IMG/VR virus record: IMGVR_UViG_3300010883_021790
Coordinates: 1 to 21,405 of that record
Strand: one strand, 5' to 3'
Source of the DNA: a virus
Length of the DNA stretch: 21,405 nt
Shown here: positions 360-17,126 of the stretch, one piece after another
How the letters are laid out: each line of letters starts with the position of its first letter
Numbering within the stretch: the stretch's first letter is position 1
The notes under the pieces: generated by a model
The model's input: only the letters and a program-made list of their open reading frames with translations
What the model was told of the DNA's origin: nothing
The model's database searches: none
Program-made: the position numbers and the translations under genes

Positions 360-578
360 ATGGAAAACGAAACGGAAAACCGAGTGCCCGAGTTTGCTAT
401 TTTTCAAAACAGCAGGACAAGGGTTGCCGCGATTTGGACGAAACACCAAGGGCGATGGCAAGAGTGTCAGTCAGAGGAGTATGACGCCATCAATTTATTC
501 GTTAGCTTACTGCGTGAGTCCAACAACCCACACGCAACGCTCGAGGAGATCGTCAAAATTATGAAAAAGGACCGCTAG
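360..578 (+). CDS. hypothetical protein, 72 aa
   Basis: A 72-residue ORF 14 bases after the previous stop. The product is hydrophilic. The N-terminal half is rich in Arg and Glu with two Trp residues, and the C-terminal half is probably helical (Asp-Ala-Ile-Asn-Leu-Phe-Val-Ser-Leu-Leu, then Thr-Leu-Glu-Glu-Ile-Val-Lys-Ile). No catalytic motif or known domain is visible. TGTAAT at 346-351 lies eight bases before the ATG and resembles a -10 box, but there is no convincing -35. This is the last gene before a 203-base non-coding gap. Codon use here looks somewhat richer in G and C than in the glycan genes that follow. Confidence 0.5.
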   Translation: MENETENRVPEFAIFQNSRTRVAAIWTKHQGRWQECQSEEYDAINLFVSLLRESNNPHATLEEIVKIMKKDR

Positions 579-781: not shown

Positions 782-1636
782 GTGAAAGGAATTGTATTAA
801 CAGGTGGAGCAAGCTCAAGACTGTATCCAACAGCATTGGTAAATAACAAAGGACTATTGCCTGTATATGATAAACCTATGATATACTATCCTCTTTGTAC
901 ATTAATTGAAAATGGTATTAAAGATATTTGTTTAATTTCTTCTCCTGATCAAATCAACAGTTATAGGAAGCTATTAGGCAATGGAAGTAGATTGGGTATT
1001 AAAATTTGTTATAAAGTTCAAAAAAGGCCCGAAGGGATAGCGCAAGCTTTTTTAATTGCTAAAACTTTTATTAAGAATGATAAAGTCGCGCTAATACTTG
1101 GTGATAATATTTTCTATGGAAGCCGCGTGTTTGGTCAGGCCTTTCGAGGCTTCAGAACGGGGGGTACCATATTTGGGTATGAAGTAAAAGACCCCACAAG
1201 ATATGGGGTAGTCAATTTCGAAGAGGGAAAACTCGCAAGCGTTGTCGAAAAACCAGAAGAGCCAAGCAGCAACTATGCAGTTCCGGGGCTATACTTGTTT
1301 GATAAAGATGTTGTTGAAATTACTAAAAAGTACGTAAACCCATCTGAAAGAGGAGAGTTAGAAATAGCTTCTGTAATTAATCAATATATTGCAAGAAAAT
1401 CAGTAAAACTAGTAAAAATTAATAGAGGCTGTGCGTGGCTTGACGCAGGGACTCCTACTTCCTTGCATGAATCATCACAGTACATTAAGGTTATAGAAGA
1501 AAGACAAGGGATTAAAATAGGTTGTATTGAAGAAGCTGCTTTTAAAAGAAAATTCATAAAAAAGATACAACTAAAAGATCTAGCGGCCAAAATGCCAAAC
1601 AGTGATTATAAAGAGTATTTAGAAAGATTGTTATGA
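782..1636 (+). CDS. rmlA: glucose-1-phosphate thymidylyltransferase (sugar-nucleotide pyrophosphorylase)
   Basis: RmlA family, which condenses glucose-1-phosphate with dTTP to dTDP-glucose, the entry step to dTDP-deoxysugars. I start it at GTG 782, giving 284 aa. A longer reading from TTG 746 adds 12 hydrophobic residues not expected in the family, whereas Met-Lys-Gly-Ile-Val-Leu-Thr-Gly-Gly is the normal N-terminus. Visible motifs are the nucleotide-binding GG-x3-RLYP loop, LLPVYDKPMIYYPL, LGDN with metal-binding Asp at residue 108, EKPEEPSSNYAVPGLY, RGELEI and AWLDAGT. The length is close to bacterial RmlA. It is the first gene of the glycan island and overlaps the next gene by ATGA. The family signature is clear; dTTP rather than UTP specificity is inferred from the motif set and the nearby rmlB. 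Confidence 0.93.
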   Translation: MKGIVLTGGASSRLYPTALVNNKGLLPVYDKPMIYYPLCTLIENGIKDICLISSPDQINSYRKLLGNGSRLGIKICYKVQKRPEGIAQAFLIAKTFIKNDKVALILGDNIFYGSRVFGQAFRGFRTGGTIFGYEVKDPTRYGVVNFEEGKLASVVEKPEEPSSNYAVPGLYLFDKDVVEITKKYVNPSERGELEIASVINQYIARKSVKLVKINRGCAWLDAGTPTSLHESSQYIKVIEERQGIKIGCIEEAAFKRKFIKKIQLKDLAAKMPNSDYKEYLERLL

Positions 1637-2493
1637 TATTAGTATTAGGACAGACAGGGTACATAGGAACTCAATTCATAAATGAGTTAAAATATAGAAA
1701 TTTATCATATAGGGGTATATCGCGGGTAAATATAGATTATACTAATTATTTTGCGCTTTCTTCTCTGCTTACCACAGACGTTGCTAGAAACAATTTTGAA
1801 TTAGTTATCAACTGCTCAGGGTATATAGGCAGACCCAACGTTGATGCGTGTGAGGATCATAAGGCAGAAACGATAGAGGGAAATGTTGTATTACCAAAAA
1901 TGATATCGGATGTCTGTTCAGACGTAGGCATTCCACTTATACACATATCTTCTGGATGTATTTATAATGGATATGATAAAACGTATACCGAGGAAGACCC
2001 CCCCGATTTTTGTTTTAAAACTAATAATGGTTCTTTTTATTCTGGATGTAAGGCGTTAGCCGAAGATTTAATTAATAAGGATAATTCTTATATTTGTAGA
2101 TTAAGGATTCCCTTTGATGAGTTCGATAACCCACGGAACTACGTAAGCAAATTAAAAAATTATAGTAAATTGTTAAATGCTAAAAATTCAATCTCTCATA
2201 GGGGTGATTTTGTTAGAGCTTGTTTGGATTTATTTGAGAATGATTGTCCTAAAGGTATTTATAATATAGTTAATTCTGGATACGCGACAACCGAACAGGT
2301 TGCGCGACTCATGACTAAATATAATATTAAAGATAATTTTAGCTTTTTTGAAAGCGAAGAAGAATTTTATAGACTTGGAGCGAAAGCTCCAAGATCTAAT
2401 TGTTTGCTCGATAACTCAAAATTGCTTTCTATGGGGGTTAAAATAAGAAGCGTTAGCGAGGCGCTGGAAGATTCCCTACAAAAATGGACATAA
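1633..2493 (+). CDS. RmlD-like NAD(P)-dependent sugar-nucleotide reductase
   Basis: A short-chain dehydrogenase/reductase of the dTDP-4-dehydrorhamnose reductase type, 286 aa. The nucleotide-binding loop is at residues 6-12 (Gly-Gln-Thr-Gly-Tyr-Ile-Gly). A strand ending Ile-Ser-Ser-Gly-Cys-Ile-Tyr-Asn-Gly corresponds to the RmlD strand that usually reads ISTDYVFDG. The catalytic Tyr-x3-Lys is Tyr136/Lys140. The usual Asp in the ISTDYVFDG position is replaced here, so the substrate may not be dTDP-4-keto-rhamnose. It is coupled to rmlA by an ATGA overlap and followed at once by the amidotransferase gene. The likely role is reduction of a 4-keto sugar nucleotide made by the RmlB encoded further on. 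No RmlC epimerase is seen, so a rhamnose product cannot be assumed. Confidence 0.8.
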   Translation: MILVLGQTGYIGTQFINELKYRNLSYRGISRVNIDYTNYFALSSLLTTDVARNNFELVINCSGYIGRPNVDACEDHKAETIEGNVVLPKMISDVCSDVGIPLIHISSGCIYNGYDKTYTEEDPPDFCFKTNNGSFYSGCKALAEDLINKDNSYICRLRIPFDEFDNPRNYVSKLKNYSKLLNAKNSISHRGDFVRACLDLFENDCPKGIYNIVNSGYATTEQVARLMTKYNIKDNFSFFESEEEFYRLGAKAPRSNCLLDNSKLLSMGVKIRSVSEALEDSLQKWT

Positions 2494-2494
2494 T

Positions 2495-3823
2495 ATGTGT
2501 GGAATATATTGTTCAAATTTATCTGCTTTAGAAAAAGGCTACGGAGAGCATTTGCTTAATTTACGTGGCCCAGATAATCTTTCCGAAGTTCAGGTTGAAG
2601 ATTTTTTCATATCCCACTCTTTGCTAAGTATTACTGGCGACACAACCTCTCAACCTTTTATAAAAAATAATATTGCATGTTTATATAATGGAGAAATTTA
2701 CAACCATGAAGAATACGGAAATTATGACAGCGATGGTGAAGCCTTAATTGATGCCTACTTACGGGACGGTATTTTCTTTCCCCAAAATCTTGACGGAGAA
2801 TTTGCTATAGCGCTAATTGATTTTCTAAATAATTTATTAATCATTTCCACCGACACTTTTAGCACGAAGCCTATATATTATTCTCTAGAAGACAAAATGT
2901 TCGGGTGCAGTTCTTACAAATCTCCATTGGAGGAAGCCGGACACAAGAACATAAAAAAATTGCCACCGAATACCATCAGGGTTATTAACATGTCTGATTT
3001 TACATCGTCAGACCATATCGTTACTAATTTTAACTTAGACCAAAAAAACAACTCCTTTGATGGGTGGGTTCGCGCGTTCGAAAAATCTATCGAAAAAAGA
3101 ACTCGAAATTGTAGAAAAAAAATCTTTATCGGTCTAAGTAGCGGTCATGATAGCGGGGCTATATATAACGAGCTTATAAATCAAGAAACCCCATTTAAGG
3201 CTTATTCTGTCAAGGGGAGTGAGAATGACCATATAATAGATCAAAGAAAAAAAATAATTGAATTTGAATCTGACTGTTACCATAAAACCCTATTTAAAAG
3301 TGAAGGCGCTTATAGGAAGGCTCACGATTATATAGTGGAGAACACCGAGCCATATAATTATGTTATAAAGTCTGACTATGGGGACTATAGTGAAAATTGT
3401 AAATTAGTAGACGATAGTGGGTCTAACTGGCTCTCTTGGGTATTCGAACACGCTCGACTAGACGGGGGAAAGGTTTGTCTCTCTGGAATGGGCGCGGATG
3501 AAATAATTTCTGATTATGGGTTTGGAGGAAATAGATATTTTTTGCATAGTAATTTCGGCGGAAACTTTCCCGATAACTTGAAAGATATATTTCCTTGGGG
3601 ATGTTTCTTTGGCAGTAGCATGGAATCTTACATGGTAAAAGAAGAATACGTTGGTGGCGCTTACGGAATAGAAACAAGATATCCGTTTTTAGATAAAAAT
3701 TTGGTTCAAGAATTTTTAAATTTAGAAAAAGACTTAAAAAACAGTAACTATAAATCTGTCTTACATGAATATTTGACTAGAGAAAATGTGCCTTTTGTGC
3801 CTCATACGAAAATGGGATTTTAA
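2495..3823 (+). CDS. asparagine-synthase-like glutamine amidotransferase, short C-terminus
   Basis: AsnB family, 442 aa. The N-terminal glutaminase domain has the Cys2 nucleophile (Met-Cys-Gly-Ile), RGPD at 24-27 and YNGEIYNH at 64-71. The synthetase domain has an ATP-pyrophosphatase loop LSSGHDS at 214-220, where the usual form is SGGxDS, and SGMGADE at 330-336. The protein stops directly after Lys-Met-Gly-Phe (439-442), a motif that in bacterial AsnB (about 550 aa) is followed by roughly 100 more residues. The next gene starts one base after the stop. Family members in O-antigen clusters often amidate sugar acids rather than aspartate. Among sugar genes that role seems likelier here, but it is inferred. 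I leave the symbol blank for that reason. Confidence 0.87.
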   Translation: MCGIYCSNLSALEKGYGEHLLNLRGPDNLSEVQVEDFFISHSLLSITGDTTSQPFIKNNIACLYNGEIYNHEEYGNYDSDGEALIDAYLRDGIFFPQNLDGEFAIALIDFLNNLLIISTDTFSTKPIYYSLEDKMFGCSSYKSPLEEAGHKNIKKLPPNTIRVINMSDFTSSDHIVTNFNLDQKNNSFDGWVRAFEKSIEKRTRNCRKKIFIGLSSGHDSGAIYNELINQETPFKAYSVKGSENDHIIDQRKKIIEFESDCYHKTLFKSEGAYRKAHDYIVENTEPYNYVIKSDYGDYSENCKLVDDSGSNWLSWVFEHARLDGGKVCLSGMGADEIISDYGFGGNRYFLHSNFGGNFPDNLKDIFPWGCFFGSSMESYMVKEEYVGGAYGIETRYPFLDKNLVQEFLNLEKDLKNSNYKSVLHEYLTRENVPFVPHTKMGF

Positions 3824-3824
3824 A

Positions 3825-4697
3825 ATGAAGCTTACTATTTATCTAACCGCCAACGAAGAGTATATTGATTTTGTAAAAGTGTTTCTTTATTCTGTTAAAA
3901 AAAACTTTCCTCAAGAAAAATTAAAAAAAATAATTATAAATGATTTGGGATTTTCTTTCGAACAAAGGATTGGCCTCAAAAAGTTTCACCCACTGGTAGA
4001 ATTTATTTCGACCACCAAAACTAAAGTTAATGCGGACGAAGTGTGGGGAGAGGGATGGAGACTTGCTATATCTAATAAAACAGAGGGCTTATTTTCCGTA
4101 TGTAATGAAGATAATTACCCCATATTAATGATTGACGTTGATACTTTTGTCTTAAGGGATTTTTCTGACGAAATATTTTACGGATGCGATGTTCAGGTAT
4201 GCCAACAAAAACCCGTTAAAACAGCTTATGGTCAAACCATAGATTATATAGGGTGCTGGTTTGTAGCTCACAACGACAAGGCGAAAGAATTCATTTACAG
4301 ATGGATGCACAAGATAAGCGCAAGTCAGTGGGCGCATAGAGAAACCCCGGGCCTATGCAGCTTAATGGATCAACTGAAGAACTCACAGAACACCCATTTT
4401 ACCATAAAAGAAAATCACGAAAATGATATTTGTGCTTTAGATTATAATCCGGCAGGAAAAGAATGGGGCAAGCCAAAAATATTACACTTTAGAAGCAACC
4501 CCCAATGCGTAAATATTTCCAAGGAGGCTAACGGGCCCACGGGTCTTAAGGAGCCGTTTGCTAATACTAACGTCGGCGTTTCTGTTAATGACAAATTTTA
4601 CCTAGACAGAATAAACGGAACAAAAAATCTACCAAATGAAATAAGGCGATTATACTATGAGGCCGATAAAGAAAATTTAATTTTACCCATAAAATGA
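3825..4697 (+). CDS. GT-A-fold glycosyltransferase, GT8-like
   Basis: A putative nucleotide-sugar-dependent glycosyltransferase, 290 aa. I choose ATG 3825, one base after the asparagine-synthase stop. The frame is open further upstream, but that stretch reads into the preceding gene and gives an unlikely N-terminus. The metal-binding DxD is Asp104-Val-Asp106 in Leu-Met-Ile-Asp-Val-Asp-Thr-Phe. A later Met-Asp-Gln and Ile-Leu-His-Phe with His221 match the third metal ligand of GT8-like enzymes. There is no signal peptide or membrane segment, so it should act in the cytoplasm. Donor and acceptor cannot be read from sequence. It overlaps the next gene by ATGA. Confidence 0.7.
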   Translation: MKLTIYLTANEEYIDFVKVFLYSVKKNFPQEKLKKIIINDLGFSFEQRIGLKKFHPLVEFISTTKTKVNADEVWGEGWRLAISNKTEGLFSVCNEDNYPILMIDVDTFVLRDFSDEIFYGCDVQVCQQKPVKTAYGQTIDYIGCWFVAHNDKAKEFIYRWMHKISASQWAHRETPGLCSLMDQLKNSQNTHFTIKENHENDICALDYNPAGKEWGKPKILHFRSNPQCVNISKEANGPTGLKEPFANTNVGVSVNDKFYLDRINGTKNLPNEIRRLYYEADKENLILPIK

Positions 4698-5407
4698 AAT
4701 TAGCAGTTCTGACAAGCCTCTTTGGAAGCCGAAACGATCTTCGCTCATTAAGCGTTTGGGAAAGGAGATATGACGTTGATTATTACGCCTTCTTAGATAG
4801 AGAGCATAAAGAAACCTTGGGGTGGAACCAAATAACGTCCCCCAGTTTCACAACTTACGCCGAATGGTCCAACAGAAGAAATGCAAAAATATACAAAATA
4901 TTACCAAATTTATTTTTACCGAATTATGACGCTTATGTTTGGGTAGACGCTTGTCAAACGGTTATTAGAGACCCTCATGCGATTTGCGAAGAGGTTCTAA
5001 AAGATAATGATATAGCTGTATTTAAACATTCTGATAGATGCTGCGTATATGATGAAGCTCAAATAGTGAGCAGATTAAAAGCGGACTCCGCCGAAACAAT
5101 AAGCAAACAAGTAGAATACCTAGAGTCAAAAAATTTTCCAAAAAATAACGGCTTATATGAATTAGCCTGCTTCGTGAGAAAAAATAATGAAATCACAAAC
5201 CAAATGGGATTAATGTGGTGGGAAATGATATGCCGGTTCTCTTCTAGGGATCAGATTTCTTTTCCGTATATTTTGTGGGAATTGAAAGATAAAATAAAAA
5301 TTTCTATTTTGCCCGGGCTTGTTAATCATTCTAGAGCAAATGATTTTTTTCAATATAACAAAACTCATAGCTCGTTAATTGACGACTGGCGCAACAAGAC
5401 TTCTTAA
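4694..5407 (+). CDS. TOD1/MUCI70-type (DUF616) glycosyltransferase-like protein
   Basis: 237 aa, overlapping the previous gene by ATGA. The pattern fits the TOD1/MUCI70 (DUF616, PF04765) family: an N-terminal strand with Leu-Thr-Ser-Leu-Phe-Gly, then Arg-Asn-Ala-Lys-Ile-Tyr-Lys and Leu-Pro-Asn-Tyr before Val-Trp-Val-Asp-Ala-Cys (Asp85). Near the C-terminus comes Ser-Arg-Asp-Gln-Ile-Ser-Phe-Pro-Tyr, resembling the RDQ-SF-Y motif of that family. Members are GT-A-like proteins in plant and bacterial glycan pathways; biochemical knowledge of the bacterial ones is thin. No signal peptide is visible. It sits between two other glycosyltransferase candidates, which supports a role in assembling the same glycan. 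The family call rests on motif memory, not a search. Confidence 0.68.
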   Translation: MKLAVLTSLFGSRNDLRSLSVWERRYDVDYYAFLDREHKETLGWNQITSPSFTTYAEWSNRRNAKIYKILPNLFLPNYDAYVWVDACQTVIRDPHAICEEVLKDNDIAVFKHSDRCCVYDEAQIVSRLKADSAETISKQVEYLESKNFPKNNGLYELACFVRKNNEITNQMGLMWWEMICRFSSRDQISFPYILWELKDKIKISILPGLVNHSRANDFFQYNKTHSSLIDDWRNKTS

Positions 5408-5408
5408 A

Positions 5409-6182
5409 GTGCATATTATAAACTTTGACAAAGAATACTTAGAGTGGGCTAGAATATTAGTTATGTCTAATTTGTTGGTTAATCAAGATGAAAAAATGTA
5501 TCTCTCCACCGTTAACTTAACGGATGAAGATATAGATGGTCTTTATGCCATTGGTGAAAATTTAATTATAGAAAACGAACTAGTTAGCCCCAAGGACGTT
5601 CCCTTGGTGGCGGAACGCATAACGGAGCATAACAAAACGGATAGATATGGTCCGCTAGATAATCGTATGCCAGAATTTATGGCTTGTAGAATTTCAAAGG
5701 TTTTTCAAAGAGCGTTCGAGAAATTTTCGAACGAAGATTTGTTTGTGTTAACTGGGGCGGATACATTTATTAACAGAAGGTTCCCCTTTAAAGAATTTGT
5801 TGATTCGCATGACGCCGCCCTTTTAACCGGGAATACTGGATCACCCCCTAGCAATCTCGCTACGGGAGTCATGTGTCTAAAGAATGTTTCACCGTGCAAA
5901 GAATTAGTTGATTTGTGGGTGAGCTATTCAGAAAACGAACAAGTCATCCGGAGCTACCGAAAGGGTTATTGGTTTTGGGACCAAGTAACCCTGAACTGCG
6001 CTGCAGAAGATATGGTTTATAAAGAAAAAATAAGAATCAAAGAACTTCCCCACTCAAGGCTTATTAATACAAACCAAGACAAAGAAGCCTATATGTGGTC
6101 TGTTCACAAATTAAATAAAGAAGGAAGAAATAAAACCTTTGACTTATGGGTGGAAGAACTAGAGAAAAGACGCTATCTTTGA
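5409..6182 (+). CDS. putative GT-A-like glycosyltransferase
   Basis: 257 aa starting at GTG 5409, one base after the previous TAA. A reading from TTG 5379 would overlap the previous gene and add ten unconserved-looking residues, so I prefer the GTG. The candidate metal site is Thr115-Gly-Ala-Asp118-Thr-Phe, where the first Asp of DxD is replaced by Gly. Later come Leu-Ala-Thr-Gly-Val-Met-Cys-Leu-Lys and Phe-Trp-Asp-Gln-Val-Thr-Leu-Asn, the layout seen in nucleotide-diphospho-sugar transferases (acceptor-side strand, then D-Q). The Pro-His-Ser-Arg-Leu near residue 225 may give the closing His. Function is inferred from fold-like motifs and from neighbours of the same kind. Confidence 0.55.
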   Translation: MHIINFDKEYLEWARILVMSNLLVNQDEKMYLSTVNLTDEDIDGLYAIGENLIIENELVSPKDVPLVAERITEHNKTDRYGPLDNRMPEFMACRISKVFQRAFEKFSNEDLFVLTGADTFINRRFPFKEFVDSHDAALLTGNTGSPPSNLATGVMCLKNVSPCKELVDLWVSYSENEQVIRSYRKGYWFWDQVTLNCAAEDMVYKEKIRIKELPHSRLINTNQDKEAYMWSVHKLNKEGRNKTFDLWVEELEKRRYL

Positions 6183-6194
6183 TAAAATAAAATT

Positions 6195-6809
6195 ATGCAA
6201 AACAAGTTAATGAAAAAGGGGGGAATTGAAATTCATTCTTCCAGCATTGTAGAATCTACCGACATAGGAGACGGAACGACGATTTGGGCATACTCTCACG
6301 TATCAGCGGGCGCTTCCATAGGTAAAAACTGCATGATAGGAGAAGGTGTCCATATAGGGAAAAATGTAAAAATTGGAGATAATTGTAAAATACAAAACCA
6401 TTCTTTACTTTATGAAGGTGTGATTTTAGAAGACGATGTGTTTATTGGGCCAAGCGTAATTACTACGAACGATTTATACCCTAGGGCGTTTGGCGAATGG
6501 ACCGAGCGCTTCGCTAAAACATTAATCAAAAGAGGAGCGGGTGTCGGGGCGAATAGCACAATAGTTTGCGGAACTACTTTGGGTGAATTTTGCATGGTAG
6601 GTGCGGGCTCTGTTGTGGTGGATGATGTTATGAATCAATCCTTGGTAAAGGGTAGCCCCGCAAGACATACAAGATTTATGTCTGACATAAAGGATAGTCC
6701 TTTCCACGGAAGCTACAGATCTGACGACCCAAACGACTCTAAAGGAAAAAGTACAATTTGCACCGCTGACCCCAACCCTATGAACAAAGATACAAAAATG
6801 TTTTTGTAA
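6195..6809 (+). CDS. sugar N-acetyltransferase, left-handed beta-helix (WlbB/FdtC-like)
   Basis: 204 aa. Residues about 14-160 carry hexapeptide repeats (Ile/Val-Gly-x4 periodicity: IGDGT, IGKNCMIGEGVHIGKNVKIGDN, IGPS) typical of trimeric acyltransferases. The loop Asn-Asp-Leu-Tyr-Pro-Arg-Ala, then Arg-Gly-Ala-Gly-Val-Gly-Ala-Asn-Ser-Thr-Ile-Val-Cys-Gly and Gly-Ser-Pro-Ala-Arg, match enzymes that acetylate the 3-amino group of nucleotide sugars using acetyl-CoA (WlbB/WbpD and FdtC/QdtC). A polar 45-residue tail follows the helix. ATG 6210 is an alternative start. The expected partner aminotransferase is not in the window, so the amino-sugar substrate must come from the host or from genes outside it, or the enzyme has another acceptor. 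Confidence 0.87.
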   Translation: MQNKLMKKGGIEIHSSSIVESTDIGDGTTIWAYSHVSAGASIGKNCMIGEGVHIGKNVKIGDNCKIQNHSLLYEGVILEDDVFIGPSVITTNDLYPRAFGEWTERFAKTLIKRGAGVGANSTIVCGTTLGEFCMVGAGSVVVDDVMNQSLVKGSPARHTRFMSDIKDSPFHGSYRSDDPNDSKGKSTICTADPNPMNKDTKMFL

Positions 6810-6830
6810 ACCCTACCTGCTCAGAAGAAA

Positions 6831-7562
6831 ATGTCAAAATTTAATCCAGTAGTTTTAATTACTCAGCCTAGAGAAATCACCGAAGTGATAAACTCTATGA
6901 AAAAATATATAAAATACCCCAAGGTATGGTTCAAGGGATATACTGAGCCCGAAGTTACTAAAGAAATAAATAGATACGTAAGAAATACTAATTATAGTCA
7001 TTATATTATATGCGCGGATGACGTTATTGTTAACGAGCAGGTTTTTGAAGAAATGGATAAATATGTTAATATATTTTCTCCCCACCATGAAACATCACGA
7101 GATATAGTTACTGGGTGGTGCAACTTAGATATTGATCATATAGACGGCAGCTTAAAGCGCGACAGCAACATAGCAGAAAAAGAGATAACCTTGGAAAATG
7201 GGATTTGGCCGTTAACGAGTGATTACGAATTTTCTTCAATACAGAACATTTTGTCTAGAAAGGGTTTGATTCAAACATACCTATCTTCTTTTGCTCTGTC
7301 TTGCGTGCCTAGAGAAACTTTAATTGGATACCCGCTCACTACTTACAAAACTCCCGGTTTTCTGTTTGAGAGAACGCCTCGCGCTCAACCCCGTGGATGC
7401 TGCTCTGATCACGAATTTTCTCGAAGGATCACCGAAGACGGAATAAAAATTTGGACTACGCCAAAAATGTTTATAAAACACCTGAGAGAAGAGCGTGACC
7501 CCTTCCTTAAGAAAAATTGGATCGTAGGAAAAGTTGAACCAACTATAACCGAGGAGTTGTGA
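6831..7562 (+). CDS. putative glycosyltransferase, GT2-like
   Basis: 243 aa. ATG 6831 follows a purine-rich AGAAGAA stretch that could serve as the ribosome binding site. Residues 57-66 read Tyr-Ile-Ile-Cys-Ala-Asp-Asp-Val-Ile-Val, a hydrophobic strand ending in an acidic pair (Asp63-Asp64) like the metal site of GT-A enzymes. Near the C-terminus, Cys-Ser-Asp193-His-Glu195-Phe-Ser-Arg-Arg followed by Gly-Ile-Lys-Ile-Trp and Ile-Lys-His217-Leu matches the catalytic E/D-x-E-F-x-R and closing His of GT2-type transferases. There is no membrane segment. It lies between the acetyltransferase and rmlB, separated from rmlB by 57 bases. Acceptor unknown. Confidence 0.62.
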   Translation: MSKFNPVVLITQPREITEVINSMKKYIKYPKVWFKGYTEPEVTKEINRYVRNTNYSHYIICADDVIVNEQVFEEMDKYVNIFSPHHETSRDIVTGWCNLDIDHIDGSLKRDSNIAEKEITLENGIWPLTSDYEFSSIQNILSRKGLIQTYLSSFALSCVPRETLIGYPLTTYKTPGFLFERTPRAQPRGCCSDHEFSRRITEDGIKIWTTPKMFIKHLREERDPFLKKNWIVGKVEPTITEEL

Positions 7563-7619
7563 TAGTCGGGGGTACAAGGATTTAACAAGTTTTCCCGTCT
7601 TTAAAAAGTGCAAATTATT

Positions 7620-8576
7620 ATGAACTTATTAGTTACAGGTGGATGTGGGTTTATCGGTTCTAACTTTATAGGACACGTTATAGAAAAAAAGCGAGTACAA
7701 AAACTTGTCAATGTCGACTGCCTTTCTTACGCCGCTTCACTCGGCAACGTTAGGTCTTTCGGAAAAAACCCCAAGTATCTTTTTGAAGAATATGATTTAT
7801 CAGACTATGGAAAAGTGTACGATACCTTTTACAAGCACGACATAACACACGTAGTCCACCTAGCTGCAGAAACACACGTAGATAACTCTATATTAGACGC
7901 TGACGCGTTTTTATCGTCAAATGTACTCGGGACACACAGCTTACTTAAAGCGGCCTTAAAATTCAAAACAAAGCGATTTCACCATGTATCAACAGATGAG
8001 GTATATGGCCACCTGAACGTAGGAGGCGATAAGTTTTCGGAGGATACCCCATACGACCCAAGAAACCCATACTCCGCGTCAAAGGCTGCTTCAGATTTTT
8101 TGGTAAGATCTTATTTTCATACGCACAGCTTACCTGTAACGATTTCAAACTGCAGCAACAATTACGGCCCAAACCAACACAAAGAAAAATTTATACCGAC
8201 CGTTATTAATTCGTTACTAAACGAGGCAAGAATACCCGTGTACGGCAAGGGAGATAACATTAGGGACTGGATTTACGTAGAGGATCACTGTAGCGCTATA
8301 TGGAAAATTTTGACAAAAGGAAAGCTGGGAGAAACATATCTAGTAGGCTCAAATTGTGAAAAAACAAATTTAGAAATAATTCACGAAATTTGTAAAATAT
8401 TAAATAGGAGTCCTGATGATTACGTAAAGTTCGTAGAAGATCGCTTAGGGCATGATTTTAGATACGCCATTAATAATTGTAAAATATCTCAAGAATTAAA
8501 ATGGAAACCTAAGGTCAAATTAAAACATGGAATTAAAAAGACAATAGATCATTATGCACGAATCATTGATAGATGA
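7620..8576 (+). CDS. rmlB: dTDP-glucose 4,6-dehydratase
   Basis: RmlB, 318 aa, converts dTDP-glucose to dTDP-4-keto-6-deoxyglucose with bound NAD. ATG 7620 gives the family N-terminus MNLLVTGGCGFIGSN with the dinucleotide loop at residues 6-13. An in-frame GTG at 7608 is possible but unneeded. Catalytic residues are visible: Thr125-Asp126-Glu127 in STDEVYG (124-130), and Tyr151/Lys155 in YSASK. HLAAETHVD, NNYGPNQHKEKFIP and GDNIRDWIYVEDH are also diagnostic. The length is slightly below the usual 340-360 aa. It is separated from rmlA by six genes, yet the two must work in series. The end overlaps the next gene by 23 bases. Confidence 0.95.
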   Translation: MNLLVTGGCGFIGSNFIGHVIEKKRVQKLVNVDCLSYAASLGNVRSFGKNPKYLFEEYDLSDYGKVYDTFYKHDITHVVHLAAETHVDNSILDADAFLSSNVLGTHSLLKAALKFKTKRFHHVSTDEVYGHLNVGGDKFSEDTPYDPRNPYSASKAASDFLVRSYFHTHSLPVTISNCSNNYGPNQHKEKFIPTVINSLLNEARIPVYGKGDNIRDWIYVEDHCSAIWKILTKGKLGETYLVGSNCEKTNLEIIHEICKILNRSPDDYVKFVEDRLGHDFRYAINNCKISQELKWKPKVKLKHGIKKTIDHYARIIDR

Positions 8577-9531
8577 TGTAAGGCTGCACGTTGACGAAAT
8601 CTCCCCGAACGAAGATAAGACTCTTGTTAGGGGGTGGTGTGCGTCAGATTCGGCTAATGAAATAGAGTCCGTAAGATTAATTGCTGGCAAAAAGTTTTCT
8701 TTTTCTGGGGATGTTTCGCAAGAGAGAAAAGACGTCTACGAGTATTATGGAAACAATGATAAGTATCTAAATTCCGGTTTCTCTATAAATGTCACTAAGA
8801 AGCTAAAGGACAAAGAAGATATATTTTTACAAGTTTTACACAAAAAAGAATGGAAAAATGCCCAGAAACTTGAGGGGACAAACATCTATAAAATTTACGA
8901 ACCAGAATCAATAAATTTTAAAATTAATAGCGAGCTTGACATAAACGCAATTGTCGTAGACAACTTCTACGAGAATCCAGAGGAAGTAAGAGAATTTGCA
9001 TTACAGAGCGGTTCATTTAATTCCCACTTAGAATATCACAAAGGCCAGAGAACAGAGGAGGTCTGGAGACCAGAGGAAGTCAAACAGTCTCTAGAAAAAC
9101 TTTTGCTAAGAAAAATTACAAACTGGGACAAACATGGAGCTAACGGCGTTTTTCAATTCTGTACATCAGAAGACCCTATCGTTTACCATGTAGACGCCCA
9201 ATCCTACGCGGCGGTTGTGTATTTAACTCCTGACGCCCCGCCAGAGTGCGGCACCACTTTTTACAGGAGCAAGGTAAATGGCTTAAGAGAAGCGCCAACG
9301 AAGGAAATCGCTAAAGAATTAAACAAAACAGAAGAGCATTTAAACGCTGAAATTTTTAGCGCTGGGTTCTATGACAAAACTAAATTCGAGACGGTAGATG
9401 TTATCGGGAATGTCTTCAATAGGCTTGTCGTCTGGGACGCGAGATTAATCCATGCTGCCTCAGAATACTTTGGATCAGACATGCAAGACTCTAGGCTTTT
9501 CCACATGTTTTTCTTCGATACGGAGGAATAA
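8554..9531 (+). CDS. 2OG-Fe(II) oxygenase-like protein with an N-terminal beta domain
   Basis: 325 aa in two parts. Residues about 130-325 look like a non-haem iron 2-oxoglutarate dioxygenase of the DUF6445 kind. They hold a Phe-Tyr-Glu-Asn-Pro opening, iron ligands His212-x-Asp214 and His300, Arg314 as the likely 2-oxoglutarate ligand, and Val-Val-Trp-Asp-Ala before the distal His. Residues 1-120 form a separate probably beta-sandwich region, with Val-Arg-Gly-Trp near residue 27, an Arg-Lys-Asp-Val-Tyr-Glu-Tyr stretch and Ser-Gly-Phe at about 75. That pattern recurs in proteins of sugar clusters but I cannot name it. The start lies 23 bases inside rmlB. It may hydroxylate a sugar, lipid or protein side chain; the substrate is unknown. 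The TAA overlaps the next ATG (TAATG). Confidence 0.72.
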   Translation: MHESLIDDVRLHVDEISPNEDKTLVRGWCASDSANEIESVRLIAGKKFSFSGDVSQERKDVYEYYGNNDKYLNSGFSINVTKKLKDKEDIFLQVLHKKEWKNAQKLEGTNIYKIYEPESINFKINSELDINAIVVDNFYENPEEVREFALQSGSFNSHLEYHKGQRTEEVWRPEEVKQSLEKLLLRKITNWDKHGANGVFQFCTSEDPIVYHVDAQSYAAVVYLTPDAPPECGTTFYRSKVNGLREAPTKEIAKELNKTEEHLNAEIFSAGFYDKTKFETVDVIGNVFNRLVVWDARLIHAASEYFGSDMQDSRLFHMFFFDTEE

Positions 9532-10217
9532 TGAAACTAGCAATCCTTCAGCCTAATTTTTTCCCGTATAGATCTTATTATGATTTAGTGAAAAAGGTTG
9601 ATAAGGTTGTCTTCCTTGATGATGTATATTACAATAACAAAAGCTGGGTGAACAAAACCCTGCTAAAAGTAAGATCAAAGGATTTTTACTTTAGGATACC
9701 GATAAACAACTACAAACAGCTAAATATAAAAGACGTCAAAATTAAAAATGAAAAATGGAAAAAGAACTTTTTAAAAATGATTAACCTTGAGTATAAATAT
9801 TGCCCCAACTTTTCACTAGTGTTTCCTGTTATCGAAGAAGCAATAAGTTTGCCGACAGACAGTATTGCTCACCTTTCTGCTTACAGCGTTTTTAAAATAT
9901 CTAGTCTTTTTAAAGACAATACAGAATTCGCCTTTTCCTCGATTGACTATCCGAACGTAAAGGGGTCTATAGAAGATAAAATTTTAACTATCTGCAAAAA
10001 AGAAAAAGCTTCAATCTATTATTCTCTATTCAAAACCCCGTACAATGCAGAAAAATTCCTTAGAAATGACATAAAAGTAAGTAATTTCGTGTCTTATGAA
10101 GGGAGGTGCTCGATAATGGACGACTTAATGACAAACCATTCTTACCATCACTTCCTTGAAAAAGAGTGTAATCTTAGGCAGCATGAACAATCACGAGCCT
10201 TCGAGCCAACAGAGTAA
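9531..10217 (+). CDS. WbqC-family protein
   Basis: 228 aa, the usual length for the WbqC family (PF08889). The N-terminus (AILQPNFFPYRSYYDL, then Val-Asp-Lys-Val-Val-Phe-Leu-Asp-Asp-Val and Lys-Ser-Trp-Val-Asn-Lys) is the family signature. Ser-Ile-Met-Asp-Asp-Leu-Met near the C-terminus also fits. WbqC proteins occur in O-antigen and other deoxysugar clusters, often beside aminotransferases. Their reaction is not well established. GGAGG four bases before the ATG is a good ribosome binding site, and the gene overlaps the oxygenase by TAATG. It is the last recognisable glycan gene, and its 3' end overlaps the PhoH gene by 35 bases. Confidence 0.87.
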   Translation: MKLAILQPNFFPYRSYYDLVKKVDKVVFLDDVYYNNKSWVNKTLLKVRSKDFYFRIPINNYKQLNIKDVKIKNEKWKKNFLKMINLEYKYCPNFSLVFPVIEEAISLPTDSIAHLSAYSVFKISSLFKDNTEFAFSSIDYPNVKGSIEDKILTICKKEKASIYYSLFKTPYNAEKFLRNDIKVSNFVSYEGRCSIMDDLMTNHSYHHFLEKECNLRQHEQSRAFEPTE

Positions 10218-10977
10218 AGTAAAAATTCGTGGAGATAGAGAGACGGCGAAAAACTTAACTGAAACAAGTAGAAAACTAAAAGCGGCTCCGGATCCAATAA
10301 AGAGGCAAATCAAAATAAACCAATTTCCTTGGACTGAAAAACAAAAAGAATTTTTTAGAGTAGCCCTAGACCCCTCAACTAACATAGTCTTTGTCAATGG
10401 CCCAGCGGGCACAGCAAAGACTCTTCTTTCTGTATATTGTGGCCTTCAGCTTTTAAACATGAAAGCTACTAACGACATAATGTACTTACGGTCCGCGGTG
10501 GAAAGCTCGGACAAAAGCTTGGGATATTTACCCGGTGATGCAAACGAAAAGCTAAGGTTCTACAACCTACCCTTTCTCGACAAGCTGGAGGAACTACTGA
10601 CAGAAAGTAGCGCTCAAAAACTAGAAGAACAAAAAAGAGTTTCTATGTTTCCCGTAAATTTTGCTAGGGGTATGAACTGGAAATATAAATGCATTATTCT
10701 TGACGAGGCCCAAAACAGCTCTATAAAAGAAATTATAACCGTGCTTACTAGAATGGGAGAGGGATGCAGGTGTTTCGTCTTGGCCGACCCAATGCAGACC
10801 GACCTAAAAAATGGAAACGCACAAGGAGGGTTCGAGGGACTATCACACATTTTTTCTGACGAAGAAAGCGTAAACATGGGCGTATACTCGTTCAGCTTTT
10901 CAGAAGAAGACATCATGAGGTCAGAGTTGGTTAAATTTTTAATCAAGAAGCTTAGAAGCTTTGCGGAGGAAGAATAA
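10183..10977 (+). CDS. phoH: PhoH-like P-loop ATPase
   Basis: 264 aa from ATG 10183. An in-frame TTG at 10156 would add nine residues from inside the previous gene. The P-loop is Gly-Pro-Ala-Gly-Thr-Ala-Lys79-Thr80 and Walker B is Ile-Ile-Leu-Asp174-Glu-Ala-Gln. Leu-Ala-Asp-Pro-Met-Gln-Thr-Asp follows in the position of helicase motif III. Upstream of the P-loop, Thr-Glu-Lys-Gln-Lys-Glu-Phe-Phe is the Q-motif-like region. PhoH ATPases are related to superfamily 1 helicases and very common in marine phages. The role in phages is unsettled, with phosphate stress, RNA metabolism and nucleic-acid unwinding proposed. It overlaps the WbqC gene by 35 bases and precedes a small unknown gene by two bases. 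Confidence 0.92.
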   Translation: MNNHEPSSQQSKVKIRGDRETAKNLTETSRKLKAAPDPIKRQIKINQFPWTEKQKEFFRVALDPSTNIVFVNGPAGTAKTLLSVYCGLQLLNMKATNDIMYLRSAVESSDKSLGYLPGDANEKLRFYNLPFLDKLEELLTESSAQKLEEQKRVSMFPVNFARGMNWKYKCIILDEAQNSSIKEIITVLTRMGEGCRCFVLADPMQTDLKNGNAQGGFEGLSHIFSDEESVNMGVYSFSFSEEDIMRSELVKFLIKKLRSFAEEE

Positions 10978-11938: not shown

Positions 11939-12641
11939 GAATGAGAAGAAAGACACAACAGCTAGAAAGCTCACATTTGAAGAAAGCATTGGTTTTATTG
12001 ATCAAGAAATTATTAAAAGAAGGGGCAAGTGGAACCTAACATCACTTCACTGGATGGATTATGATGATGTTTCGCAAATTATAAGAATTCATATACATGA
12101 AAAATGGCACTTATATGACGCAAGCAAACCATTGGGCCCTTGGGTAAACAGAATAATTTCTAATCAGATAAAAAACCTTATAAGAAACAATTATGGAAAC
12201 TTTAGTAGACCATGCTTAAAGTGTGAAGCGGCAAGACCAAACAATGGGTGTGATATATATGATTCTCAATGCGCTGAGTGCCCACTATACGCTAAGTGGG
12301 AAAAAACTAAAAAATCAGCTTATGAGATTAAAATTCCCCTAGCCTTGGAAGATCACGCACACGAAGTAAGCCCGGTTGGTTTTGAAGATAATATAAACTT
12401 AAATAAGTTTGCCGCGAATTTACATAAAAAAATGAAGACCAACCTAAAGTCAAACGAATGGATTGTTTACAAAGGGTTATTTATTGACAATAAGACGGAA
12501 GAAGAAGTGGCAAAAAAAATGGGGTTCAAATCAAACGAGAAAAATAGAACCCCCGGTTATAAACAAATTAAAAATTTAAGAAAAAAAATTATAGAAAAGG
12601 TCAAAAAATGCTTAAAAAGGGATGAGGTAGACTACTTATGA
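11931..12641 (+). CDS. phage sigma-70-like factor with a Cys-rich insertion
   Basis: 236 aa. Residues about 35-92 look like sigma region 2: Asp-Tyr-Asp-Asp-Val-Ser-Gln-Ile, an aromatic/His stretch, then Gly-Pro-Trp-Val-Asn-Arg-Ile-Ile-Ser-Asn-Gln-Ile-Lys-Asn-Leu-Ile-Arg, the promoter-melting helix pattern. Residues about 170-230 hold a region-4-like helix-turn-helix with Thr-Glu-Glu-Glu-Val-Ala-Lys-Lys-Met-Gly-Phe. Between them is a Cys cluster (Cys95, 98, 107, 114, 117) that may bind zinc. The likely role is directing host RNA polymerase to late promoters, like T4 gp55. It overlaps the zinc-ribbon gene by eight bases and the SET gene by ATGA. The family call is from motifs; promoter specificity is unknown. 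Confidence 0.75.
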   Translation: MSKNEKKDTTARKLTFEESIGFIDQEIIKRRGKWNLTSLHWMDYDDVSQIIRIHIHEKWHLYDASKPLGPWVNRIISNQIKNLIRNNYGNFSRPCLKCEAARPNNGCDIYDSQCAECPLYAKWEKTKKSAYEIKIPLALEDHAHEVSPVGFEDNINLNKFAANLHKKMKTNLKSNEWIVYKGLFIDNKTEEEVAKKMGFKSNEKNRTPGYKQIKNLRKKIIEKVKKCLKRDEVDYL

Positions 12642-13270
12642 AAATACACGATAAATTAGCTAATGGAATATATCTTGGAGCTTCAGCAATTCCGGGCGCT
12701 GGAGTAGGGGTATTCACGGGGGTCCCAATTGGAGCAGGAACACCCACGTGCGAATACAAGGGAGAAACATTCGATAGCTTGGATGTTCCTCGCCAACGAT
12801 ACGAATATACGCGGCAAAGCGGGTTCTCAACCCCACATCTTATATATACGCAGGCCCATCCGCCGTCAGGATTATACATAGAATCGCACCCCGCTCTTTG
12901 TAAGGCGGAAATGGGGTTAGGCTGTTTTGTAAATGACGCAAGAAATCACACCAACAGAGAAAAAGCCCTCGAAGAAAAGCAAGACCCGCAGGAGAAGCTA
13001 AACATGTCAATAGAAGCGGGGTACAATTGTACTTATTTCATAGTTCCAAATGAGCCTGTTATTTATTTAACAGCGATAAGGAACATAGAGGCCGGGGAAG
13101 AGCTGCTTGTAAATTATGGAGATAAGTACTGGGGCCCCTTTGCTGAGGCGGAGGAAGTGCAAAAAAAAAGGGAAGAAGCCCTGCGGGAAAAAGAACAAGG
13201 GGAAAAAACAGAACAAAAAAGCGAAAAAGAAAGCCTAGAAGAAAAAGAAAATGAGCTCGTCTCAACATAA
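12638..13270 (+). CDS. SET-domain protein (putative lysine methyltransferase)
   Basis: 210 aa. Residues about 10-165 match a SET domain, which transfers methyl from S-adenosylmethionine to lysine. The pieces visible are Gly-Ala-Gly-Val-Gly-Val-Phe-Thr with Ile-Gly-Ala-Gly and Glu-Tyr-Lys-Gly-Glu near the start; Gly95-Cys-Phe-Val-Asn99-Asp-Ala-Arg-Asn at the NHS position; and Ile-Glu-Ala-Gly-Glu-Glu-Leu-Leu-Val-Asn159-Tyr160-Gly161 with the Tyr expected for catalysis. The pre-NHS and post-NHS segments are separated by an insertion of about 45 residues. From about residue 170 the tail is a Lys/Glu-rich probable coiled coil. It is coupled to the sigma gene by ATGA and overlaps the next gene by 20 bases. 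The target is unknown: host RNA polymerase, a ribosomal protein or a phage protein are all possible. Confidence 0.83.
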   Translation: MKIHDKLANGIYLGASAIPGAGVGVFTGVPIGAGTPTCEYKGETFDSLDVPRQRYEYTRQSGFSTPHLIYTQAHPPSGLYIESHPALCKAEMGLGCFVNDARNHTNREKALEEKQDPQEKLNMSIEAGYNCTYFIVPNEPVIYLTAIRNIEAGEELLVNYGDKYWGPFAEAEEVQKKREEALREKEQGEKTEQKSEKESLEEKENELVST

Positions 13271-14348: not shown

Positions 14349-15300
14349 TGTTATTGTCCCAGACCCAACTTGTCAAGCTTGCCAAAAACAATTCGAAACT
14401 CACAGGCAATTGCACGCCCATCTCAAGGCTCACGATTTAAGGGTTGTGGGATATTATCAAAAATATTTCCCAAGGCATGATCTCCGTGATAATAAGATTA
14501 TTAAGTATAAAAGCTTAGAGCAATATTTTTCAACTGACTTTAACTCTAGAACCAACCTCCGTCTTTGGCTTAAATCAGCGACAAAAGAAGAAGCGGTAAC
14601 TTACTGCAAAAACATTCTATTAAAAAGAAAAAACGACAAGGGGCTTGTCTACACCCCAACACAAGTAGAGCTTAGAACAATACTTTCGCCGCCCATTCAG
14701 TATCTACGAGAGATTTTAGACGGGTATTATAAGGTATGCGAAGAAATGGGGTTCAAAAACAAATATCAATTACCGACAGAAATAGTTGAAGGCAAGGAAT
14801 ACGCAAAGCCGCAATATTCTATACATATAGACACAAGAGAACAGCTTCCCTTAAAGTTTGATGATTACACCACTAGGTCCACGACGCTATCAGTGGGGGA
14901 CTATACTTTTAGTGAACCGAAATTAACATGCAACTGCTATATAGAAAGAAAGTCTTTGGCTGATTTTATTTCTACCATGAGTGTTAAAAATTTAGAAAGA
15001 TTTGAAAAAGAAATAACAAGAGCAAAAGAAGAAGATATTAATTTAATTGTTTTAATTGAGGATACATTAAGCCACGCCGTCAGCTTTAAATTTTTGCCGC
15101 ATATATCTAAAAAAATAAAAGCAACGCCAGAGTATATATTTCACAACGTAAGAGAACTAATACAAAAATACCCACACATTCAATTCCTCTTTGTCGGAGG
15201 AAGGAAAGAAGCCAAAAGGGTTATTAAAAAAATATTCTTTAGTGGGTGCATATATAAAAAAATAGATCTTCAATACGCGTACGATACGAAAGTTTTATAA
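14341..15300 (+). CDS. C2H2 zinc-finger / ERCC4-type nuclease
   Basis: 319 aa. Residues 11-31 are a canonical C2H2 finger, Cys-x2-Cys-x3-Phe-x5-Leu-x2-His-x3-His. The C-terminal half, from about residue 155, is an ERCC4 (XPF-family) nuclease: Asp164-Thr-Arg166-Glu167, Val-Gly186-Asp187-Tyr188 and Ile-Glu202-Arg203-Lys204-Ser, the D-n-GD-n-ERK active site. ERCC4 nucleases cut branched or flapped DNA near junctions. The middle (about 45-150) is helical and unassigned. GGGGGAGG seven bases before the ATG is the best ribosome binding site in this stretch. It overlaps the upstream gene by eight bases and the terminase by TAATG. A role in clearing branches before packaging, like T4 endonuclease VII, is inferred from position. 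Confidence 0.88.
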   Translation: MSSVIVPDPTCQACQKQFETHRQLHAHLKAHDLRVVGYYQKYFPRHDLRDNKIIKYKSLEQYFSTDFNSRTNLRLWLKSATKEEAVTYCKNILLKRKNDKGLVYTPTQVELRTILSPPIQYLREILDGYYKVCEEMGFKNKYQLPTEIVEGKEYAKPQYSIHIDTREQLPLKFDDYTTRSTTLSVGDYTFSEPKLTCNCYIERKSLADFISTMSVKNLERFEKEITRAKEEDINLIVLIEDTLSHAVSFKFLPHISKKIKATPEYIFHNVRELIQKYPHIQFLFVGGRKEAKRVIKKIFFSGCIYKKIDLQYAYDTKVL

Positions 15301-17126
15301 TGTGGTACTGCCCTGAAAAATACGAAACAGAGCCGGAAAACATCAATAAAAAGATGCTTGAATTGGAAGGCTTTTTATCTGATAGAGAAGCTAAAATAAC
15401 TTTAGCAAGGTTTATGCAAGCCAATCTAGGTTTCACCACCGAGTTGATATCAGGAATTAAGCTTGCGACATATCAAGAAGTGACTCTTCGCGGTATGATG
15501 AATAGAAATTTTACGATGTGTGTGTGGGGCCGTGGTTGCGGTAAAACTTTTATAGCTTCGGTTTTTTGCTTTCTCCAGTGCATATTTAACCCCGGGACCA
15601 AGATACTTGTTGCTGGACCAACATTTCGTACTGCAAGATTTATATTTAGCAATTTAGAGAAAATGGTAGAATCAAAAGGTGCAGAATTGCTAGCTCAATG
15701 TTTCGGCGCAAAAATAAAACGTAATGACCAATTCGAGTGGTCTATCAACGGGGGAACCATAACAGCCATTCCCCTTAACGGAGAAAAGATCCGTGGTTTT
15801 CGCGCTAATGTCCTTTTGTTAGATGAGTACCTTTTGTTACCAGAAGACTTAATCAATACGGTTCTTATGCCATTCTTGGTAGCGCCTCAAAACATGAAAG
15901 AGCGTATTGAAATTAGAGAAACGGAAGATAAGCTAATTGAATCGGGCCACATGACAGAAGAGGAAAGAATGATATTTGATAATGATTCAAAAATGATTGC
16001 CCTGTCCTCGGCGTCATACACATTTGAAAATTTGTACAGAACTTACAAAGATTGGGGGAATCATATTTACGACGATAAAAAAAGCAATTCCTCGTATTTC
16101 ATTTCGCAGATGGGGTACGAAGCATTACCCGAGCATATGATTGATCAAACTATTATTGAGGCCGCCCAAGACGGAGGAACTTCCAACGCTTCTTTTCAGC
16201 GGGAATACTGCGCTATGTTTACGGACGGAAGCGATAGTTATTTTAGCGCTATCAAAATGCATGCATGCACTATTCCAGACGGAGAAGAACCAACAACCTT
16301 AATAAAGGGGCGTCCAGATAAAAAATATGTAGTAGGCATTGACCCTAACATGAGCGATAGCCCAAGCGCTGACTTTTTCGGTATAGCTATAATGGAAATT
16401 GACGAAGAAAAAGAAACCTCCACGCTGGTGCATAATTACGCTGGTCTAGGTAATTTAAATAAACACGTACAATATCTTTATTACATACTAGAAAACTTTG
16501 ATCCAGTTTTTATTTCCGTTGATAATGCTGGGTCAGACATGTTTCTTGACGCGGCTAACAACTCTAAACTTTTCTTAGATAATAGAATTAATTTAAAAAC
16601 AATTGAATTCGACTCTAACAAAGAAGGGGTAGATTATACCAAACAAGTGAGAGATCTTAAAAGAGCATATAATAAAGAAAATAGGCAAATAGCATTTAAC
16701 CAAGTCTTCTCTAGCGATTGGATAAGGAAAGCTAACGAGCTTCTTCAGGCTAATATTGATTATAAAAAAATATGGTTTAGTTCTAAAACCACAGCTAATG
16801 GCTCCGAATTCGACAAACAAAGCACTTACAAAATTAATTTAAAGCAAGTTGGCGAAGATAATTTGGGAATGTTCATAGAAACTCAAGATGATCTAGTATA
16901 CCAAGTTAAAAGGCAATGCGCGTTAGTAGAGGTAAAAACCACGGCAAGGGGAACGCAAACATTTGACCTGCCGCAGCATTTAAAGCGAAATACCAGCGCG
17001 GGCAGAGCAAGAAAAGATAATTATACTGCATTATTACTTGCAAACTGGGCGACAAAATGTTACTTTGATATGCAAAATTATAAGTTGAACGAAGGAACTG
17101 CGACATTTACCCCAAGAATGGTGTAA
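15300..17126 (+). CDS. terL: terminase large subunit
   Basis: 608 aa, the packaging motor ATPase and headful nuclease. The Walker A is Gly77-Arg-Gly-Cys-Gly-Lys82-Thr83, an unusual form with Cys. Walker B is Val-Leu-Leu-Leu-Asp175-Glu176-Tyr, and Leu-Ser-Ser-Ala-Ser follows as motif III. The RNase-H-like nuclease has Asp348 (Gly-Ile-Asp-Pro-Asn), Asp408 (Ser-Val-Asp-Asn-Ala-Gly) and Asp573 (Lys-Asp-Asn-Tyr-Thr-Ala-Leu). Length and order agree with the gp17-type large terminase of myophages. The start overlaps the nuclease stop (TAATG), so it lacks its own spaced ribosome binding site. The gene is followed by a 46-base A/T-rich gap and then the portal gene, the expected packaging order. The class of DNA end it generates cannot be read from sequence alone. 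Confidence 0.95.
   Translation: MWYCPEKYETEPENINKKMLELEGFLSDREAKITLARFMQANLGFTTELISGIKLATYQEVTLRGMMNRNFTMCVWGRGCGKTFIASVFCFLQCIFNPGTKILVAGPTFRTARFIFSNLEKMVESKGAELLAQCFGAKIKRNDQFEWSINGGTITAIPLNGEKIRGFRANVLLLDEYLLLPEDLINTVLMPFLVAPQNMKERIEIRETEDKLIESGHMTEEERMIFDNDSKMIALSSASYTFENLYRTYKDWGNHIYDDKKSNSSYFISQMGYEALPEHMIDQTIIEAAQDGGTSNASFQREYCAMFTDGSDSYFSAIKMHACTIPDGEEPTTLIKGRPDKKYVVGIDPNMSDSPSADFFGIAIMEIDEEKETSTLVHNYAGLGNLNKHVQYLYYILENFDPVFISVDNAGSDMFLDAANNSKLFLDNRINLKTIEFDSNKEGVDYTKQVRDLKRAYNKENRQIAFNQVFSSDWIRKANELLQANIDYKKIWFSSKTTANGSEFDKQSTYKINLKQVGEDNLGMFIETQDDLVYQVKRQCALVEVKTTARGTQTFDLPQHLKRNTSAGRARKDNYTALLLANWATKCYFDMQNYKLNEGTATFTPRMV

Follow-up and report, generated by a model that had tools for sequence, protein, structure and literature searches.

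Positions 782 to 10217 of the DNA analyzed here hold an island of eleven genes for the synthesis, transfer and modification of sugars. This stretch, called the window below, is one complete virus record in IMG/VR (IMGVR_UViG_3300010883_021790; 21,405 bases), and sequence comparisons indicate that the island is a real glycosylation operon owned by the phage. We consider it reasonably probable that (i) rmlA, a gene for an NRS/ER-type enzyme and rmlB form a constant frame for the synthesis of activated rhamnose, (ii) this frame flanks an exchangeable interior, and (iii) the resulting glycan is assembled in the cytoplasm on virion proteins.

The second gene encodes a predicted NRS/ER-type enzyme

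An earlier reading of the window, made from the letters and open reading frames (the sequence-only reading), had labelled the second gene of the island an RmlD-like reductase. This label has to be replaced: the protein scores 52 bits against the NCBIfam rmlD equivalog, for which the cut-off is 224, and profile, tree and residues all place it with the NRS/ER type. Against solved structures (phmmer) it scores 114 bits with plant NRS/ER (4qqr), 65 with the mimivirus rhamnose synthase (7jid) and 30 with the best RmlD, and the A3 clade profile gives 161.8 bits for plant NRS/ER, 110 for the mimivirus enzyme and 70 for the best RmlD. In a maximum-likelihood tree the viral, plant and mimivirus rows are split from RmlD at 100/100; two Bacteroidota rows with long branches stand on the NRS/ER side, and the inner branching leaves the origin unsettled.

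In the mimivirus enzyme L780, mutagenesis has identified Cys108 and Lys175 as catalytic, and dTDP substrates are also accepted (PMC9614988). Cys109 and Lys173 of the second gene product align with these two residues; within the A3 set neither of them varies, nor do Tyr136 and Lys140, the Tyr/Lys pair of SDR proteins. Of 80 viral relatives, 70 have the Cys, the GxPNVD motif and the RNxxxK motif together, compared with none of 15 RmlD-like proteins from Bacteroidota, and the SSGC motif is absent from Escherichia coli RfbD. The assignment of the protein as a putative bifunctional 3,5-epimerase/4-reductase of the plant and mimivirus NRS/ER type, standing in for RmlC and RmlD, is well supported. 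Alternatively, the gene could encode a true RmlD, or a 4-ketoreductase yielding dTDP-6-deoxyglucose or dTDP-D-fucose, with the host supplying RmlC. The match to PF04321 and the RmlD fold would agree with this; however, the equivalog and clade-profile scores, the invariant catalytic Cys and Lys, the SSGC motif and the tree all argue against it, and we regard it as improbable. A canonical rhamnose route with host RmlC was set aside upon recognition of the NRS/ER type, and so were dTDP-fucose and dTDP-quinovose as products, which had been raised by the missing RmlC.

RmlC is absent from 34 of 34 and from 49 of 50 related records (the profile control was positive in 11 of 14 genomes), and no canonical RmlABCD pathway is recognized, there being no RmlC and an RmlD equivalog score below the cut-off. 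Relatives are contigs labelled L090, L091 and so on, and G451 and G483 are records. An RmlC match occurs in a single related record, that of L252 (G483); it lies at 419-904, at the contig edge, and is reported to contain internal stop codons. Because the second gene product is a bifunctional enzyme of the NRS/ER type, the absence of RmlC does not constitute a gap; rmlA, the NRS/ER gene and rmlB therefore make up a complete predicted route, and in this well-supported first step of the mechanism that we propose their products would convert glucose-1-phosphate to dTDP-L-rhamnose. Near the NRS/ER gene, rmlA is found in 56 and rmlB in 54 of the 80 viral relatives.

The island is part of a phage genome

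All eleven open reading frames of the island lie on the plus strand, and adjoining genes overlap or almost touch, which bears out the unidirectional, overlapping run described by the sequence-only reading; its coordinates and start codons (GTG at 782, ATG at 10183) were judged sensible. The features are as follows.

360-578, plus strand: small open reading frame of 72 amino acids, a flank marker beside rmlA in six contigs (tblastn: 86% in L090; 42-55% in L094, L099, L102 and L124; 48% in L193 and L186).
782-1636, plus strand: rmlA, glucose-1-phosphate thymidylyltransferase, frame gene 1 (GTG start; Pfam 1e-55; TIGR01207 350 bits, just below the NCBIfam cut-off of 360.65; motifs GDN and WLDAG invariant among relatives).
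1633-2493, plus strand: predicted NRS/ER-type dTDP/UDP-4-keto-6-deoxyglucose 3,5-epimerase/4-reductase, frame gene 2 (phmmer, clade profile, residues and tree).
2495-3823, plus strand: AsnB-like glutamine amidotransferase, interior (PF13537 and PF00733; TIGR01536 112 bits, below the cut-off of 267; Cys2 and SSGxDS invariant).
3822-4697, plus strand: gtA, PF03407-type glycosyltransferase with D-x-D, interior (Pfam 1.7e-5, over the cut-off; D-x-D invariant in 10 relatives).
4694-5407, plus strand: TOD1/MUCI70-type glycosyltransferase, interior (Pfam 2.7e-21; 43% identity to a marine single-cell phage, 27-29% to Cellulophaga phages).
5406-6182, plus strand: gtC, probable GT-A-like glycosyltransferase, interior (hhalign P 8.5e-5 against the profile of gtA, in an alignment that includes the D-x-D region).
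6195-6809, plus strand: left-handed beta-helix sugar N-acetyltransferase, WlbB-like, interior (139 bits with PDB 3mqg, 126 with 7s43, 120 with 4mzu; hexapeptide transferase over the Pfam cut-off).
6831-7562, plus strand: gtD, interior (phrog_1574, E 0.001; only two viral relatives found).
7620-8576, plus strand: rmlB, dTDP-glucose 4,6-dehydratase, frame gene 3 (TIGR01181 416 bits, above the cut-off of 365; STDE and YxxxK conserved).
8554-9531, plus strand: N-terminal domain and DUF6445 oxygenase-like domain (DUF6445 5e-14, over the cut-off; phrog_1644 1.2e-33; HxD...H...R residues invariant across 19 relatives).
9531-10217, plus strand: WbqC-family protein, the fast-diverging 3' end of the island (PF08889 3.3e-34).
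10183-10977, plus strand: phoH, conserved 3' boundary of the island (ATG start; PF02562 5.7e-46).
15300-17126, plus strand: terL, phage hallmark (phrog_2 1.5e-23; Terminase_6N 1.5e-8).

Profile searches confirmed the rmlA, rmlB, amidotransferase, amino-sugar acetyltransferase, oxygenase and WbqC families named by the sequence-only reading, and ten of the eleven island products obtained a family assignment or profile-level kinship. Its four glycosyltransferase candidates fared unequally: those at 3822 and 4694 are supported by Pfam and that at 5406 by profile kinship, whereas gtD, at 6831, could not be assigned, having no match to a Pfam or NCBIfam family or to the GT2-like profile. AlphaFold models of gtC and gtD, based on 3-4 sequences, were too poor (predicted local distance difference test scores of 48 and 36). 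For the function of WbqC, no informative paper was found in the open-licence literature.

The island was said to lie directly before phage core genes, and this is what we find: phoH follows, and terL is on the same molecule. The 3' side comprises, in order, PhoH, a zinc ribbon protein, a sigma-like protein, a SET-domain protein, the unassigned open reading frame o365, an ERCC4 nuclease, TerL, a gene in the portal position (17173; the portal match is weak) and a Calx-beta-like protein. The SET-domain protein (12638-13270) diverges fast (31-89%) and is undetected in several relatives. A scan of IMG/VR with TerL gave 548 viral relatives. The NRS/ER gene, rmlB, phoH and terL occur together on one molecule in 22 records besides the window, counted as different contigs (the 28 loci of the TerL-linked survey include six contigs fetched twice), and these records, judged by their identifiers, stem from many different IMG data sets. 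An assembly artefact joining bacterial and phage DNA, against which the sequence-only reading had cautioned, is excluded because the same locus is linked to terL in these 22 other records, and we rate its probability as negligible. Of 37 contigs with terL, phoH and 1.2 kb or more of sequence upstream of phoH, 18 have rmlB no farther than 4 kb upstream of that gene, among them all 11 with a TerL identity of at least 82%. The closest relative, L090, has the same eleven genes in the same order, with protein identities of 77-93%.

A constant frame flanks an exchangeable interior

The frame consists of rmlA and the NRS/ER gene at the 5' end and of rmlB, often the oxygenase gene, often wbqC and then phoH at the 3' end. 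Between its two parts the interior of TerL-linked contigs measures 7 bp to 7,579 bp and holds 0 to about 10 genes, and the families found there in relatives include DegT, GNAT, GT92, GT2-like, RgpF-like, FkbM methyltransferase, polysaccharide deacetylase, UDP-GlcNAc 2-epimerase and cytidylyltransferases. Spearman coefficients for co-divergence with TerL, computed from pairwise values that are mutually non-independent, are 0.80 for rmlA, 0.72 for the NRS/ER gene and 0.69 for rmlB, next to 0.76 for the portal gene and 0.59 for phoH. For WbqC the median identity is 56% where that of TerL exceeds 85%.

L090 and L091 are 99.06% identical across 15,260 bases from inside asnB onward and 78-85% identical on the other side of this breakpoint; relative to L090, L091 carries a second copy of asnB and about 5 kb of extra cargo. 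The synonymous divergence (dS) of gtD to its relatives is 0.069 compared with 0.4-1.6 for the neighboring genes, which argues that gtD was recently exchanged between phages. For all other island genes the ratio of nonsynonymous to synonymous divergence (dN/dS) is 0.05-0.14 (NG86; some dS values are saturated), and therefore these genes are maintained by purifying selection. In total, these data support the conclusion that rmlA, the NRS/ER gene and rmlB form a conserved frame, which diverges with terL and flanks an exchangeable interior of glycosyltransferases and sugar modifiers. That the phage has an operon of sugar-nucleotide and glycosyltransferase genes next to its packaging genes is upheld by this recurrence and selection; what has to be given up is one fixed gene set, in place of which we find a frame with a swappable interior.

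In the second, supported step of the proposed mechanism, the rhamnose frame would flank an interior that here comprises two to four glycosyltransferases, an AsnB-type amidotransferase and a WlbB-like N-acetyltransferase, with the DUF6445 oxygenase and WbqC closing the island. The interior would set which sugars are joined and how they are trimmed, and in this way related phages would build differing glycans.

Three observations concern the islands of relatives. Mini DegT-type aminotransferase-like proteins of about 200 amino acids recur (L091:1930-2526; L093:1812-2408 and 4608-5231; L098:5008-5655; L099:5393-5986; L104:7797-8408; L112:2986-3582; L113:4348-4971); they match two separate parts of the PF01041 profile with the middle missing (seen in the L112 copy and in further records) and retain an SFxxKK motif like that of the pyridoxal-phosphate lysine. 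The interior at L107:2415-9995 holds a full DegT, a polysaccharide deacetylase, an MptE-like protein, a CMP-sugar-type cytidylyltransferase and a GNAT, resembling a nonulosonate-type set in a phage. In G451 (178,487 bases; loci L287-L295) the island lies at about 132-138 kb, at least two further dehydratase/epimerase-like genes matched by rmlB lie off the island at 29.9 and 72.0 kb, and a large Thr-rich (22%) protein is encoded at the record end.

The glycan may be assembled on virion proteins

The flippase family Polysacc_synt (PF01943) and the initiating transferase family Bac_transf (PF02397) were found in none of 31 related records, with the WecA, Wzy and ABC exporter families outside this profile search. 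Among 287 proteins of the sampled loci a single one has more than one hydrophobic segment, compared with nine in the control RfbX, and the 178-kb relative G451, which carries the island, encodes no protein with more than three. Because no flippase or initiator was found and nearly all proteins are soluble, a self-contained pathway for a surface polysaccharide is unlikely, and for the same reasons we favor cytoplasmic assembly on virion proteins over remodelling of the host O-antigen. In the cultured cyanophage DSL-LC02 a homologue of the oxygenase lies among tail fibre and collagen-like genes, together with sugar enzymes, a neighborhood that by analogy hints at modification of fibre proteins.

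Alternatively, the products may feed an O-antigen or capsule pathway of the host, so that the altered surface of infected cells excludes other phages. The glycosyltransferases of pelagimyophage and cyanophage islands have been published as acting in host-surface remodelling (PMC7029224; PMC9602691), and WlbB-like and WbqC proteins are characteristic of the O-antigen loci of bacteria. However, neither the island nor the 178-kb relative contains a flippase, initiating transferase, polymerase or multi-pass membrane protein (Wzy was not profile-searched), the enzymes would have to plug into undefined host machinery, and the diversity of the cargo would have to match each host. We regard host-surface remodelling as possible but unlikely. 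Very improbable, in our judgment, is a third destination, the phage DNA itself, whose modified bases the glycosyltransferases would decorate as protection against restriction. Glycosylated phage DNA is known, and a Shewanella phage with a pentose on cytosine has recently been reported (PMC12838424); yet the thymidylate-synthase/dCMP-hydroxymethylase family (PF00303) is found in none of 13 related records, which are fragments and include the 178-kb one, and known DNA glycosylation is far simpler than a system that combines rhamnose with N-acetyl and amido modification and with turnover of the interior.

In the third step of the mechanism with virion proteins as acceptors, we infer that the glycan would be built in the cytoplasm from nucleotide sugars and straight onto these proteins, the oxygenase perhaps providing hydroxyl acceptors. 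Speculatively, in a fourth step, the swappable coat would act in a serotype-like manner and mask or tune the particle with respect to receptors, grazers and competitors. A more far-reaching proposal concerns a clade of tailed phages whose members would glycosylate their own virions autonomously, in the cytoplasm, by means of a rhamnose-based glycan that can be switched. They would use the NRS/ER enzyme, a type so far reported chiefly in eukaryotes and giant viruses, and possibly hydroxyl acceptors made by the oxygenase, and the island would be a serotype cassette with a constant frame and an exchangeable interior; in this full form we hold the proposal to be doubtful.

Several points weigh against glycosylation of the virion as we propose it. 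The NRS/ER activity is predicted from homology and residues. The substrate of the WlbB-like acetyltransferase has to be an amino sugar, and the window has no gene for an aminotransferase; pieces of DegT are found elsewhere in four relatives. gtD lacks a family, and host lipid-linked machinery could be borrowed instead. Moreover, the Thr-rich tracts of the Calx-beta protein are confined to close relatives, and their distribution does not follow that of the island. This protein (19244-21403), located 3' of the portal gene, has Calx-beta-like repeats, which is our own reading of them, and poly-Thr/Ala linkers up to the contig end. A mucin-like acceptor was considered and dropped: the poly-Thr tracts occur in the window, L004, L009 and L011, not in other island carriers, and may reflect close kinship.

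Distribution and host

No close NRS/ER homologue was found in 50,697 cultured-phage records (best 23-27% identity, mostly annotated as RmlD), in 72,556 plasmids or in 395 Bacteroidota genomes (best 85 bits); the bacterial survey covered Bacteroidota and plasmids, and we do not claim phage-specificity. A survey from 2011 listed four bacterial homologues of the enzyme domain, all from Verrucomicrobia, and called the origin unknown (PMC3220709). Among the 80 viral relatives of the NRS/ER protein, the 22 TerL-linked carriers are tailed phages. Assignment to the cyanophages was rejected, as no psbA/psbD family is found in 18 records. L170, a 77-kb contig of a Flavobacteriales metagenome-assembled genome (NZWA01000041), has a TerL relative (63%) and lacks the rml frame; the host hint is weak.

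Relation to known systems

The island represents a modular, recombining phage glycan locus in which the ends are constant and the middle is exchangeable, an architecture comparable to that of bacterial surface-antigen loci, and its core and cargo genes can now be named. An RmlC-free, NRS/ER-based rhamnose route in phages would have been masked by annotation as RmlD, and the hundreds of viral NRS/ER copies make the question of its origin testable. Phage glycan islands are already known; the NRS/ER route, for which no paper on phages was found in the open-licence literature, and the layout of constant frame and swappable interior beside phoH and terL look new.

The Synechococcus phage S-SCSM1 (MK867354, 102-121 kb) also has many glycosyltransferases and 2-oxoglutarate oxygenases in one run, including a TOD1-type glycosyltransferase with an AsnB-type amidotransferase immediately after it (43.5% and 48.7% identity to the window proteins). 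It differs in having a GDP-fucose route (GMD and fucose synthase) instead of dTDP-rhamnose, in lacking NRS/ER and in being a T4-like cyanophage of another terminase lineage. In Phapecoctavirus, e.g. Escherichia phage ESCO13, dTDP-rhamnose genes likewise lie a few genes upstream of phoH; however, these are the canonical rmlB, A, C and D, the last of which encodes a true RmlD (26.6% identity) without the Cys motif, and there is no variable glycosyltransferase interior. The host recognition cluster of pelagimyophages (PMC7029224) resembles the window-type island as a hypervariable, glycosyltransferase-rich region in marine phages. Its place is between VrlC and gp14, tail fibres form part of it, and the text of that paper does not contain "dtdp", whereas the window-type island, itself a variable glycosyltransferase-rich region of a phage genome, lies between orf1/rmlA and phoH, with no tail fibre gene recognized within the sampled islands.

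Plant NRS/ER (UER1, PDB 4qqr) is the best solved relative and shares the motifs GRPNVD, GC, SFYSxxK and NPRNxxxK with the phage protein, but it prefers UDP-sugars (PMC6556577). Mimivirus and chloroviruses (R141, L780; PMC9614988) make their own activated rhamnose by means of a bifunctional epimerase/reductase and glycosylate their own particles outside the host ER and Golgi, a feature that in the window phage we infer from genes. These are giant viruses of eukaryotes with a UDP route without RmlA, whereas the window belongs to a tailed phage that encodes RmlA and for this reason would use the dTDP route. If the glycan is indeed placed on the virion, the island would be a prokaryotic counterpart to the autonomous glycosylation of giant viruses.

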